Source: Duncaniella sp.
GTDB taxonomy: Bacteria; Bacteroidota; Bacteroidia; Bacteroidales; Muribaculaceae
Reading direction: 5' to 3'
Assembly: GCA_029060405.1 (NCBI GenBank)
Contig: JAIDUB010000110.1
Location: 1 to 64,000, forward strand
Length of the DNA: 64,000 nt
This document shows, one piece after another, positions 2,499 through 59,168 of the stretch. Both the position numbers and the translations under genes were made by a program. Each line of letters starts with the position of its first letter. The first letter of the stretch is position 1. The notes beneath the pieces were generated by a model, which saw only the letters and a program-made list of their open reading frames with translations, had not been told where the DNA came from and did no database searches.

Positions 2499-3539
2499 TC
2501 AATCAGCGGTCATCTCGCCTACCATAGGCACGGTGAGATAATTCTTGATGTCGGCTGCCGAGAGGCCTGAGCCGAGAAGATACATCATCTTTGTCACGGC
2601 AGCCTCGATGGTGATGTCGTAGCCCGAGATCACGCCGGCCTTGGTGAGCATGTCGCCGGTGTAGTAGCGCTTCGACTCGTCTCCGCCGTTGAGGCACTGG
2701 GTCACGTTGTAGAGTATCAGTCCGCGGCTTGCGGCATCGGCCACAGCGTCGAGGAACCACTGCTCGGTGGGCGCATTGCCGGCGCCGAAGGTGCGGAGTA
2801 TCACAGCCTTGATGCCCGGAGTGGCAAGCTGAGCCTTAACGACGTCCTCGGTGATACCGGGATAGAGCCAGAGCACGAGGATATTGGGATCCATCGAGTA
2901 GAAAGGCTCGAGAGGCAGGGCGGTGTCGTGACGCATCAGGTAAGGCTTGGCGTAATTGATATGGAGGTCGATAGTGCCGAGCACGGGGTAGTTGAAGCTC
3001 TTGAAGGCGTGGAAACCTGTTGAGGTGAACTTGGTGGAGCGGCATCCGCGCACGATGTAGTCCTGAAAAGCGATGACCACTTCCTGAATCATCGGGTCGC
3101 CGTTCTCGTCCTTGGCGGCTGCCACTTCGAGGGCCGAGATGAGGTTTTCGGTACCGTCCTCACGGGTGTCGCCGATAGGAAGCTGCGAACCGGTGATGAC
3201 CACAGGCTTGCGGAGGTTGCGGAGCATGAAGCTCAGCGCCGAAGCTGTATAGGCCATGGTGTCGGTGCCGTGGAGCACTACGAAGCCGTCAAATTCATCG
3301 TAGCGGTCGGCGATATCCTTCACTATCTGATTCCAGTAGGTGGGATTCATGTTTGACGAATCGATAGGCTGCGGGAACTGGACGCTTTCGATATCGTAAC
3401 CGAGATTACCTACCTTGGGCACATTGTCCATGAGGTGTGAGAAGTCAAAGGGCTGGAGACCGTCGGGGGTCTCGACCATACCGATTGTACCACCGGTATA
3501 GATTATAAGTATTCGGGGGCGATTAGTTGTAGTTGCCAT
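2499..3539 (-). CDS. ansA: Type I L-asparaginase
   Basis: 346 aa; TGGTIGM, LHGTDTMAYTASALSFML, GSQLPIG motifs. Confidence 0.95.
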   Translation of the reverse strand: MATTTNRPRILIIYTGGTIGMVETPDGLQPFDFSHLMDNVPKVGNLGYDIESVQFPQPIDSSNMNPTYWNQIVKDIADRYDEFDGFVVLHGTDTMAYTASALSFMLRNLRKPVVITGSQLPIGDTREDGTENLISALEVAAAKDENGDPMIQEVVIAFQDYIVRGCRSTKFTSTGFHAFKSFNYPVLGTIDLHINYAKPYLMRHDTALPLEPFYSMDPNILVLWLYPGITEDVVKAQLATPGIKAVILRTFGAGNAPTEQWFLDAVADAASRGLILYNVTQCLNGGDESKRYYTGDMLTKAGVISGYDITIEAAVTKMMYLLGSGLSAADIKNYLTVPMVGEMTAD

Positions 3540-53819: not shown

Positions 53820-55169
53820 TCACAGCAATCCGGTCATATCAGGGCGGAACACACCTAACTGTGTTTCATTATTCCGCAGATACATCACCATATATACGGG
53901 CATATATATCAGCTTCCCCACGACCTCCACATTGCCGTTGCAAAGTATCACAGCCTCAGCAAGATCATATGGGGAATCTGCCATAAGATTATTAAGAGCT
54001 GAATGCCTCTGATAATCTTTTCCCGACTTTACCTCAACAGGCACCACTTCGCCGTCGATATTGACCACAAAATCAATCTCACCTCGTTTCTTATTATTGT
54101 AATAATACGGAGTGATTCCGTGCGTGAGCAATTCTTCGGCAATAACATTCTCGTAAATCGCCCCAAAATTTATTGAGGAATCGCCCATAATGAGCTTCAG
54201 TTGTATTCCATCGGCATACTGGGCGGCAAGCAGGCCTACATCATTGCTGAAAAGCTTGAAAAGATTGCGGGTCTCGGCTAATTTCAGCGGAGCCTTAGGT
54301 TCTTCGACATTATATACAGGGATGGCAACTCCGGCATCCTTAAGCCAAAGAAAACTGTCCTCATACCGACTCATTTTAGCATGCTCATTGAGATTTTTCA
54401 ATATGAACCGTTTGTTTTTGGCATCGAGTTCCGACGGTATGAGGTCAAATATCTCCTTGATTTTCAACTTGTCTCGTTCAGCATATTGGGATATATCCAT
54501 TCTGTATAGCGCAACAATATCCTGCTGCACGGTGAGCACATTGGAGAGATTGTTTGTCGACAGATACTCGCTTACAACCGCAGGCATTCCTCCTACGACG
54601 GTATACAGTCTGAACAACTGCAACATTTTTTCATGAATGATTGAATCCACCGGCTTGCGTTCCTCCCAGCATCGCCGGAGTTCACCTATCACCGCTTCCG
54701 AGACCTTCATGTTTATAATAAACTCCTCGAAATCAAGTGGAAAAACCTCCTTAATACCCATAAAACCCACTGGCTGTGAATTTATGCCCTTCAACTCCAC
54801 GCCAAGTAGAGAACCGCTCAAGATGTAGCGGAAACGCCCATCCTCGACCAGAAATTTAACAGCCGTCACGATATTTTCGCATCGCTGCACCTCATCAAAA
54901 AAAACGAGAGTCTGGCCCGGAATCAAGTCAGAGGATGTAATAGCTGATAATCGCAGCAATACCTCATCTGCCGAATATACATTTTTAAAGACTTCAACCG
55001 CCTCAGGATGCTCTATGAAATTTATTTCCACGAAACTCCTGAAAGTCTTGCCCAACTGTCGCGCCGCATATGTCTTGCCGGTCTGCCGGGCACCGGTAAG
55101 CAACAATACCCTGTCAGTATTCTTGTAAAAGTCAGAGATATATTGAGTGAGTTTTCGATATAGAGCCAT
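53820..55169 (-). CDS. AAA ATPase with DUF4143/PD-(D/E)XK domain
   Basis: LLTGARQTGKTYAARQL; LVFFDEVQRCENIV; GEIDFVVNIDGEVVPVEVKSGKDY. Confidence 0.93.
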   Translation of the reverse strand: MALYRKLTQYISDFYKNTDRVLLLTGARQTGKTYAARQLGKTFRSFVEINFIEHPEAVEVFKNVYSADEVLLRLSAITSSDLIPGQTLVFFDEVQRCENIVTAVKFLVEDGRFRYILSGSLLGVELKGINSQPVGFMGIKEVFPLDFEEFIINMKVSEAVIGELRRCWEERKPVDSIIHEKMLQLFRLYTVVGGMPAVVSEYLSTNNLSNVLTVQQDIVALYRMDISQYAERDKLKIKEIFDLIPSELDAKNKRFILKNLNEHAKMSRYEDSFLWLKDAGVAIPVYNVEEPKAPLKLAETRNLFKLFSNDVGLLAAQYADGIQLKLIMGDSSINFGAIYENVIAEELLTHGITPYYYNNKKRGEIDFVVNIDGEVVPVEVKSGKDYQRHSALNNLMADSPYDLAEAVILCNGNVEVVGKLIYMPVYMVMYLRNNETQLGVFRPDMTGLL

Positions 55170-56474: not shown

Positions 56475-57143
56475 TTAATTGCGGCTGATCGCCTCTTCAA
56501 TGCTCAGCTTGACCCAGCAAACAGCGTATGGGAGAAATCGGAATCCGCGGGCCTTATCATACTTGCGCGCTGCATGGATAAGCCCGATATTACCCTCGGA
56601 TATAAGTTTGTCTAAAGGGTGCTCGGATGAAACATATCTTTTGGCTATCAACTCCACAAATCGGCGATACGATACTGTCAGCTTCTCTATGGCTTCATCA
56701 CAATCGTCCTCCGATTGCTGTATCTTCTTCACCAATGCCATTTCCTCTTCAAGAGAAATTAATTCGCCGGGAAGATACCGGAGTGGCAGCTCATCGGTAT
56801 TCACAATCAGCGCCTTTTTCCCATGTTCATGTGAGACAGCGATTTCATTATCCATCGACTTTTCATTATTGCCCGAAGTGAACGCGACAAGTAAATCAGA
56901 ATCCTCAATCAAAGACCTGTTCCTGCTCAGCCGCGCCTCGGCATCATTCCCGATAACTTCATATGTTGAAACCGGTATGGAAAACTTCCCGGCATATGTT
57001 TTGGCATACTCATTCAGAAGCGTTTCCCCGCCGGTGATGCGGATTTCCGTTAATTGAGTATTCCGGAAATTTCTGCGAAACAACACTTCCCAATCCTGAT
57101 AGGTAACGGTAGGGTTCACAACCCCGATTATAGCAACTTTCAT
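56475..57143 (-). CDS. SLOG (DUF2493/YspA-like) domain fused to sigma-70 region 2
   Basis: N-term MKVAIIGV..EIRITGGETLLNEYAK..SRNRSLIEDSDLLVAF; C-term LISLEEEMALVKKIQQ..PLDKLISEGNIGLIHAARKYDKARGFRFLPYAVCWVKLSIEEAISRN; ATG start at 57143. Confidence 0.7.
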   Translation of the reverse strand: MKVAIIGVVNPTVTYQDWEVLFRRNFRNTQLTEIRITGGETLLNEYAKTYAGKFSIPVSTYEVIGNDAEARLSRNRSLIEDSDLLVAFTSGNNEKSMDNEIAVSHEHGKKALIVNTDELPLRYLPGELISLEEEMALVKKIQQSEDDCDEAIEKLTVSYRRFVELIAKRYVSSEHPLDKLISEGNIGLIHAARKYDKARGFRFLPYAVCWVKLSIEEAISRN

Positions 57144-57381
57144 AGGCAAAAAAATTAATGGTTATTATATATATTATACGATGAGAAATTTTGGGATTTG
57201 TTCTTTTTTGTTAAAATTTCAGCCTTCAAGCATCGATATTTCTGACCAATTTGTCTCATCAATCTAATTTTCAATTAATTCCGCGTTAATTATTTTTAAC
57301 TTTACATATTTTAACAATCGTATTTTCAAGCCATTTTCCACCCCTGATCGCGGCTTCACCACCCTGCATGTTTATCATAAA

Positions 57382-57726
57382 AAAGAAGAGGCGCAGGAAT
57401 CTGTGTCAGTCACCGTCCTACACCTTGAGGCTTCTCGCATTGCCCTATCTAAGTCGGACGGCAACGCAGAAGCCCACGCCAGTATATGCAACTATTGCTC
57501 CCGACGCTATTCGCATGAGGGAATAACGAGCCGGAAGCAGGATATTACATACCTACGGGCATCTATCGTTGCCCGACCCTTGACTTAGATAGAAATTTTG
57601 CGAGAATTTCAAGGTGTCAAGAATCAGCGCGGATAAACGCTATTAATAAAAATGGCGGAATGCGCAGTAAGCATTCCTCAGGAGGAAATCAACCGCACCT
57701 CTGCGCGGAATCAAAATTCGTCCTGT
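57382..57726 (-). ncRNA. Candidate structured RNA of unknown family
   Basis: Promoter at 57732-57762 (minus), long-range complementary arms 57421-57466/57567-57616, local hairpins, U-run at the 3' end. Confidence 0.65.
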
Positions 57727-57731
57727 ATTCG

Positions 57732-57762
57732 CAAAAGTACTACTTATTAACAACATAACAAA
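57732..57762 (-). promoter_or_regulatory. Consensus Bacteroidetes promoter of the candidate RNA
   Basis: Minus strand TTTG-N19-TACTTTTG. Confidence 0.7.
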
Positions 57763-57944
57763 AAGTCAGAGAAATAATCGCCCGTTTTTCTGCAAAAATG
57801 CGGAGGAATCAGATGATATTTATAATCCCGATAGAGTACCAAATATGTATATACCCCCGGCCTCTAAAGACTAAAAAAAAGGAATGAGTATACAGTTGCC
57901 GGAGGCACATTATTGTCAGAACTACTGCAAAAAATGAGTCAAAA

Positions 57945-58241
57945 GAGGATGTATCAAAAATCAAATAGCGCCCGTGGGCGCTGACTTACTCGTAACCGGC
58001 GCCGCCGTAGCTCAGCGAAGGCGTCGCCGGTTATCTGATACTTAAGCATAGGCGTCCGGAAGGCCGCCGATTGAATAACTTGTTGATTCCCATTGTATTC
58101 GGCGGCCTATCGGGCGCCTATTGTATCATTTTCATTTACCCGGGGCGCCTCCGCATAGCTGCGGCGACCCGGGTTACGAAGAACTCGGCGGCCTGCGGAC
58201 GCCGACTCACATTTTGAATTAGCAAATTTTGACACAGCCTC
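57945..58241. mobile_element. MITE-like element with TIRs GAGG[A/C]TGT[A/G]TCAAAA and three large internal hairpins
   Basis: GAGGATGTATCAAAA at 57945 inverted as TTTTGACACAGCCTC ending 58241; no ORF inside. Confidence 0.72.
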
Positions 58242-58391: not shown

Positions 58392-59168
58392 TTACACGTA
58401 GCCGCGGATGATGCCGCGCTTGGAGTTGCGGACAAACATGATGATTTCGTCGCGCTCCTTGGTGGCGGGAAGTTCGGCTTCGATGCGCTCTACAGCGTCG
58501 GAGAAATTGAGCCCCGAGAGGTAGAGGTAGCGGTAGATATCCTGAATCTCGCAGATGGTTTCGTTGGAGAAGCCGCGGCGACGCAGGCCGATTGAGTTGA
58601 TACCCACATAGGAGATGGGCTCGCGGGCAGCCTTGACGTAGGGAGGAATATCCTTGTTGATAAGCGCTCCGCCCTGAATCATTACGTGAGGGCCGATGTG
58701 GCAGAACTGATGCACGAGCGTGCCGCCGCCTATCACGGCGAAATTGTCCACAACGACTTCGCCGGCAAGCTGGGTAGCGTTGGATATGATCACATTGTCG
58801 CCCACCACACAGTCATGAGCCACGTGGCAGTAAGCCATGATGAGGCAGTTGCTGCCTACTACGGTCTTGCCTTTGGAGGCGGTACCGCGGTTGACGGTCA
58901 CGCACTCGCGTATCACGGTGTTGTCGCCGATGATGGCAAGCGTATCCTCGCCGCGGAATTTGAGATCCTGAGGCACTCCCGAGATTACGGCACCGGGGAA
59001 GATGGTGCAGTTTTTACCGATGCGCGCGCCCTCCATTATGGTGACGTTTGAACCGATGCGGGTGCCTTCGCCTATCTCAACGTTCTGCTCAATGGTGACA
59101 AACGGATCGATTACCACACTGGGAGCGATCTTGGCGGCGGGATGGATATATGATAAGGGCTGTTTCAT
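58392..59168 (-). CDS. lpxA: Acyl-ACP--UDP-N-acetylglucosamine O-acyltransferase
   Basis: Hexapeptide repeats; YCHVAHDCVVGDNVIISNATQLAGEV. Confidence 0.97.
   Translation of the reverse strand: MKQPLSYIHPAAKIAPSVVIDPFVTIEQNVEIGEGTRIGSNVTIMEGARIGKNCTIFPGAVISGVPQDLKFRGEDTLAIIGDNTVIRECVTVNRGTASKGKTVVGSNCLIMAYCHVAHDCVVGDNVIISNATQLAGEVVVDNFAVIGGGTLVHQFCHIGPHVMIQGGALINKDIPPYVKAAREPISYVGINSIGLRRRGFSNETICEIQDIYRYLYLSGLNFSDAVERIEAELPATKERDEIIMFVRNSKRGIIRGYV

Follow-up and report, generated by a model that had tools for sequence, protein, structure and literature searches.

A structured RNA with its own promoter lies upstream of a sigma-70 region 2 gene

The minus strand of the 64,000-nt Duncaniella sp. 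stretch analyzed here (the window, at its full length) carries an RNA locus at 57382-57762, followed by a gene whose product contains a sigma-70 region 2 domain. Outside the helices of the conserved core, its features are the following.

57732-57765 (minus strand): Bacteroidetes-type promoter, with a TTTG-type -33 element and the -7 element TACTTTTG
57657-57708 (minus strand): locus-specific 5′ hairpins CCGCGCAGAGGTGCGG and GGAATGC..GCATTCC, common to loci L008 and L009 only
57395-57401 (minus strand): tail GATTCCT, poorly conserved here; in other copies its partner is the loop of a short hairpin immediately ahead of the gene
57379-57390 (minus strand): U-rich tract directly 3′ of a terminator-type stem
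56475-57149 (minus strand): gene for a SLOG-like/sigma-70 region 2 protein, presumably the controlled gene

The -33 element falls within 57754-57765 and the -7 element at 57732-57739, and from this promoter a structured block reaches down to the U-rich end. The RNA has a folding energy of -144.4 kcal/mol, compared with -105.6 ± 5.55 kcal/mol for dinucleotide shuffles (z = -7.0), and none of 100 such shuffles folded as well. A sequence-only reading of this DNA had proposed a structured RNA of about 345 nt here, with its own promoter and a U-rich 3′ end. Folding energy and the strong covariation described below indicate that the RNA is genuine, and both flanking signals are in place. That reading had also doubted the 61-aa ORF on the plus strand, which indeed lacks support, since the region evolves as paired RNA. 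As it had found for their motifs, tmRNA and RNase P give no match, and searches of the window and five related loci against Rfam 15 returned no relevant match at the gathering threshold to any family, described riboswitch classes included; the few matches at relaxed E-values all lie far under their gathering scores.

The 5′ part of the RNA is local. Other copies mostly have a different 5′ hairpin domain, and some have almost none: an extra domain GCAGACCG...CGGTCTGGGG...GCGGGATG is found in most copies (e.g. L001-L036), and L162 is almost without one. The hairpins GAATGC/GCATTC and CCTC/GAGG of the sequence-only reading exist at the window locus, within a 5′ part common to L008 and L009 only. 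The outer GCGCAG/CTGCGC pairing it proposed is likewise shared by these two orthologues only; what is conserved is the pairing of CTGCGC with GCGTGGG. At the 3′ end of the window RNA the U tract is broken up and the gene starts ~240 nt beyond the core, so that a second promoter before the gene is possible.

The sigma-70 assignment comes from Pfam (Sigma70_r2, E = 3.5e-12); Pfam gave no match to the SLOG part of the product, a name taken from the sequence-only reading. Residues 83-222 also match PADLOC MzaA (E = 1.7e-12), and a defence-related role may be hinted at. Farther downstream of the RNA, 53820-55169 (minus strand) encodes an AAA_14/DUF4143 ATPase that matches the PADLOC candidate defence model PDC-S01 at 1.8e-189. 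The gap that separates the RNA from the next gene (58392-59168) is AT-rich except for a cluster of GC-rich inverted repeats (GGCGCCGCCG..., CGGCGGCC...) at 58000-58215; the Rfam matches of the cluster are weak and far under the gathering score.

The RNA belongs to a multicopy family centered on Muribaculaceae

What had been described as an orphan is one member of a multicopy family. A DNA similarity search found 7 matches in the same genome, and a covariance model of the 3′ part found 14 copies. The family is present in 138 of 199 sampled Muribaculaceae genomes, covering 25 of 30 genera. Across Bacteroidales, matches are scattered (24 of 199 genomes), and in a phylum sample of 199 genomes from outside Bacteroidales there were none, under stricter filters that may lose weak matches. 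A pattern scan of named genomes yielded 118 loci, mostly from Muribaculaceae (Duncaniella, Muribaculum, Paramuribaculum, Heminiphilus), with some labelled Prevotella. Cultured strains with copies include Duncaniella muris DSM 103720 and Heminiphilus faecis AM35. The pattern scan demanded GGCAATGCGAGAAGCCTC, and this stretch is therefore necessarily invariant in L037-L154; the pattern left the codeword (see below) open, and the loci from similarity searches (L001-L036, L175-L244) are independent of it. At L117, the Prevotella sp. P5-50 locus, positions 2945-3019 (minus strand) correspond to an L13-Bacteroidia ribosomal protein leader (RF03127).

Rfam 15 and the open-access papers covered by our literature search hold no description of a similar RNA from Muribaculaceae or Bacteroidales, and the RNA appears to represent an as yet undescribed Bacteroidales family with a large set of presumably controlled genes. 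We rejected a mobile element of phages or plasmids as its vehicle: the exact pattern has no match in viral contigs, and blastn none in plasmids.

Family members are leaders of functionally unrelated genes

Measured from the end of the 260-nt core, the start codon (ATG) on the same strand lies at a median distance of 53 nt (interquartile range 49-64), and the RNA is therefore a 5′ leader rather than a free-standing sRNA. On the other side, TAnnTTTG is found upstream of 167 of 183 copies (91%), compared with 13% in shuffled upstream DNA. A short hairpin sits between core and gene. Where the core tail departs from GATTCCT, it is a better pairing partner for its own downstream loop (5.14) than for swapped loops (4.49 ± 0.09), as in GACTCCC/GGGAGTC (L155) and GATTCCC/GGGAATC (L156).

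The downstream genes are diverse, and many of them encode surface proteins. Among the Pfam matches listed for them are BspA-type LRR, Peptidase_C10, PEGA, Big_2, DUF4595, AbiGi and others, and their functions have no common theme. The sequence-only reading had pointed to linkage with the SLOG-sigma gene; this is not general, being found in 4 of 191 copies (L001, L008, L009, L206), with a sigma-70 region 2 gene following the leader at the window, L008, L009 and L206. Individual associations of leader and gene are kept in orthologues across genera. In two genomes, the leaders L002 and L048 share 99% backbone identity and the same a word, with different b words and different genes.

These positions bear on two other readings of the family. 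Its promoter, terminator-like end and large stable fold would all suit an independent trans-acting sRNA, in which promoter and U-rich end define a free transcript and the place before a gene is incidental. We consider this improbable given the tight clustering of core-to-ATG distances, the pairing of the core tail with the hairpin between core and gene, and the retention of leader-gene associations in orthologues across genera. Nor is there a codeword-matched target nearby: DNA sites matching the codewords within several kb amount to 21 paired hits against 21.1 expected. The second reading, a MITE-like mobile repeat, bounded by hairpins and structurally active as DNA, would account for copies that are numerous, scattered and often at contig ends. 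It is very hard to reconcile with a promoter and start codon at fixed positions, with the same gene bearing the leader in different genera, and with the conservation of features that matter in single-stranded RNA (the U tract, tail-loop pairing and G-U pairs in constant helices), and we give it very little credence.

Covariation supports two mutually exclusive folds

The conserved core comprises the following elements, in which a and b denote two variable words (codewords) and a′ and b′ their partners.

57626-57641 (minus strand): P0, an AGCG/CGCT hairpin that opens the core
57579-57621 (minus strand): hairpin H1, CTTGAC (a) GAAATT CTCGCAA AATTTC (b) GTCAAG, with conserved base and inner helices
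57611-57615 (minus strand): codeword a, ACCTT, 5 nt, pairing with a′
57585-57591 (minus strand): codeword b, TATCTAA, 7 nt, pairing with b′
57461-57572 (minus strand): central domain, a candidate sensor closed by P1c; its internal loops are conserved in sequence and one hairpin is variable
57567-57572 and 57461-57466 (minus strand): P1c, GCAACG/CGTTGC
57409-57465 (minus strand): hairpin H2, GTTGCCGTCC GAC (b′) GGC AATGCGAGAA GCC TC (a′) GTA GGACGGTGAC, with an apical loop complementary to that of H1
57446-57452 (minus strand): b′, TTAGATA
57422-57426 (minus strand): a′, AAGGT
57391-57479 (minus strand): terminator-type stem around H2, GCGTGGG (57473-57479)/CCTGCGC (57391-57397)

Each of the four core pairs of P0 is formed in at least 129 of ~134 copies, and the 5′ strand of this hairpin has an alternative partner in the 3′ ACGC of the terminator region. 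The H1 base helix is 98.9% paired, with both-side changes at 2 pairs, and its inner helix 99.2%. H2 is 99.7% paired with compensatory changes, and other families have the same helix in another sequence (GTTGCTCGTTC/GGACGAGTAAC). Across 191 copies, the terminator-type stem (core positions 165-171/247-253) is ~99% paired per pair, counting Watson-Crick and G-U, and includes G-U and compensatory variants; variants of one or the other kind occur in each of the H1 base, the H1 inner helix, the H2 base and this stem. The 9 nt after its CGC hold a mean of 7.1 T in the family, with 7 or 8 T in 135 of 170 copies. RNAalifold recovered both the stem and H2 unprompted; a generic terminator scan missed the stem, since the entire H2 hairpin takes the place of its loop. 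The apical loops of H1 and H2 have changed jointly, as read by eye, in L254 (CTAGCA/TGCTAG) and L257 (CTGGCA/TGCCAG), and other families present the same architecture in new sequences. P1c is 99.3% paired and near-invariant in the family, with compensatory changes in the distant copies L158, L161, L252, L258, L260 and L263 that were read by eye, outside any statistical test.

These helices assemble into two folds. In the two-hairpin fold, scored over 90 non-redundant cores with codewords, kissing loops and terminator stem, 98.8% of cells are paired and the covariation score is 0.334, compared with 0.115 for shuffles and at most 0.054 for slid partners. Covariation, the check that the sequence-only reading had proposed, is in this way borne out. 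In the alternative, a long rod, 97.2% of cells are paired and the score is 0.395 versus 0.107 for shuffles, with nearly all of the signal in the codewords, which both folds share. Computed energies are -101.6 kcal/mol for the rod and -92.5 kcal/mol for the two hairpins, ~9 apart with the kissing contribution excluded. The H2 base and P1c are mutually exclusive because both use the same GTTGC, and the covariation supports two exclusive folds, in which the rod would preclude H2 and the terminator stem. The arms 57567-57616 and 57421-57466 in the sequence-only reading do pair, as the codeword rod of the wider family, which is only one of these two folds. The observation made there is confirmed, and its interpretation is partly supported.

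We propose that the RNA is a cis-acting transcription attenuator, i.e. a terminator/antiterminator switch with its own promoter ahead of a gene, and put the probability of this reading at about 0.6. Three findings point to it: a 5′ UTR position at constant spacing, a stem followed by a U tract, and a covarying alternative fold that excludes the terminator. The P1c part of the last comes from the distant copies, P1c being nearly invariant in Muribaculaceae. In a first state, H1 and H2 would form and contact each other through a kissing interaction of their apical loops, and GCGUGGG/CCUACGC would close as a stem over H2 just before the U tract. We infer that RNA polymerase would stop at this stem in vivo, releasing a leader RNA of ~345 nt. 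In the second state, the central domain would be shut by P1c and the upstream strand would zip onto the downstream strand through a/a′ and b/b′ to give the rod, so that H2 and the terminator stem would be lost and transcription would run on into the gene. This direction of control is presumed, and the conserved central domain is a candidate sensor on which a signal would act. The codeword pairs, in turn, would set a fixed bias between the two states and confine pairing to the RNA's own partner strand.

Codewords vary in sequence at near-constant pairing energy

The partners lie far apart, ~190 nt for a and a′ and ~140 nt for b and b′, and are paired in 99.1% and 96.0% of cells, respectively. 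All four Watson-Crick pair types occur at most codeword positions, and b has both-side changes at every pair. G-U accounts for 1.9% of pairs in a and 4.1% in b, compared with 16% in the H1 base. Codeword a is 5 nt long in all parsed Muribaculaceae copies except two parsing outliers. When two copies have variable hairpins that are 92-97% identical, their codewords agree about as often as by chance (identity 0.367 versus 0.390 expected).

Pairing energy, by contrast with sequence, varies little. Among perfectly paired copies, codeword a contains exactly two G/C in 110 of 128, the standard deviation of its GC count is 0.37 (1.07 expected) and that of its ΔG 0.89 (2.15 expected); for b, the ΔG value is 1.13 (1.88 expected). 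Helix energies spread ~0.4 times (a) and ~0.6 times (b) as widely as identical base frequencies would predict. The vocabulary is also restricted: 181 copies use 57 different a words where 136 would be expected, and 150 copies use 53 b words where 131 would be. When copies sharing both words are removed and GC is held fixed, 45 a words remain versus 75 expected and 52 b words versus 94; sharing a single word makes almost no difference to the backbone similarity of copies (hairpin 0.53 versus 0.52). We therefore rejected energy or ancestry as a sufficient source of the small vocabulary. To our knowledge, this codeword property has no counterpart.

Words are kept between orthologous loci of at least ~95% protein identity and have often changed in more distant orthologues, and close paralogues within one genome (L022, L190, L093) have unrelated words. 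The stability among close orthologues led us to discard our initial reading of very fast code evolution. Much of the pattern of identical backbones with different codes appears to reflect backbones shared between loci whose codes are locus-specific. Within genomes, avoidance of the same words gave no signal (3 of 96 same-word pairs versus 2.3 expected), and copies of the codewords in the 5′ domain, hairpin, gene and flanks showed no enrichment surviving 36 tests. The sequence a′ is scarcer than expected in the 1000 nt downstream of its own copy (122 versus 163.9, P ≤ 0.0005); because word a is likewise somewhat depleted in the upstream control, we take this only as a hint of avoided mispairing. 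At L043 (3120-3388), L147 (11-263) and L082, the words of the two halves are mismatched, e.g. ACTCT/TATCTAT versus GAATC/TTTAGAT in L043, as if the halves derived from different copies.

For the proposed attenuator, constant codeword energy would suit a switch kept in a poised state, and variable codeword sequence would suit a requirement for self-specificity when many copies have identical kissing loops, which may be the purpose of the words. The same data can be read as a single-state RNA: a paranemic complex of H1 and H2, docked alongside each other and held by the kissing loop and by a/a′ and b/b′, would form a protein-binding site or a leader that modifies RNA polymerase. The two hairpins do share an architecture of base helix, variable 5/7-nt internal loop, short inner helix and complementary apical loop; their inner helices are conserved although the rod would leave them unpaired, a is fixed at 5 nt, and G-U is rare in the codewords. 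Here, all pairs and lengths are conserved, and the sequence is compatible with coexistence of the elements as well as with their alternation. Designed RNA paranemic crossover (PX) motifs offer a likeness, as two hairpins could join through opposed 5/7-nt internal loops without threading. The PX motifs in the literature examined are designed, however, whereas the present motif is deduced from sequence alone, and we know of no natural paranemic RNA. Docking also leaves unexplained the stem directly before the U tract, as well as the covariation in distant copies of P1c, a helix incompatible with H2, and we regard the single-state reading as unlikely. If H1 and H2 did dock in this way, the codewords and both hairpins could coexist, and the codewords would then not be a mark of antitermination.

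IS110 bridge RNAs also place variable segments opposite each other in the internal loops of two stem-loops. Together with the few G-U pairs and the reuse of words across genera, this likeness could suggest that the words are guides, in an RNA serving a recombination or targeting system. In this family the words are complementary to each other within the RNA, matching sites within several kb are as frequent as expected (the 21 hits given above), the 25 listed of 37 Pfam families matched by 79 downstream genes include no recombinase, and the searched viral contigs and plasmids lack the RNA. A guide function is accordingly highly improbable.

The restricted codebook may, in turn, imply a decoder. 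As a tentative extension, which we hold to be possible and on balance doubtful, the family could form a codeword-addressed RNA system with a two-word address (5 nt + 7 nt) drawn from a shared, energy-normalized codebook. Copies would fold only with themselves, possibly as a natural paranemic crossover, or a decoder acting in trans would read the address and so reach chosen subsets of surface and accessory genes.

Relation to known RNAs and implications

The proposed attenuator resembles attenuating riboswitches and other leaders in its 5′ position, conserved central domain, exclusive folds, and stem and U tract before the gene. It differs in that its targets are functionally unrelated and its switching helices hold hypervariable iso-energetic words, which we know of in no riboswitch class. 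T-box leader RNAs similarly combine a conserved leader, a short locus-specific recognition sequence and attenuation; in contrast, this family has no Rfam T-box match and no amino-acid gene theme, and the partners of its variable words lie in the RNA itself. ColE1 RNAI/RNAII and other kissing-loop antisense controls share loop-loop recognition and sequence turnover between units. Here, however, both partners lie in one RNA, and the loops are constant while the flanking internal-loop words vary.

As an attenuator, the RNA is a known type of control in a new form, and one RNA class would control many unrelated surface, protease and accessory genes. Its codewords are free to change in sequence at a fixed pairing energy and recur whatever the backbone. 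This makes two ideas testable, namely avoidance of mispairing among RNA copies in one cell and the reading of an RNA address. In addition, the family is a candidate for a naturally occurring paranemic RNA motif.
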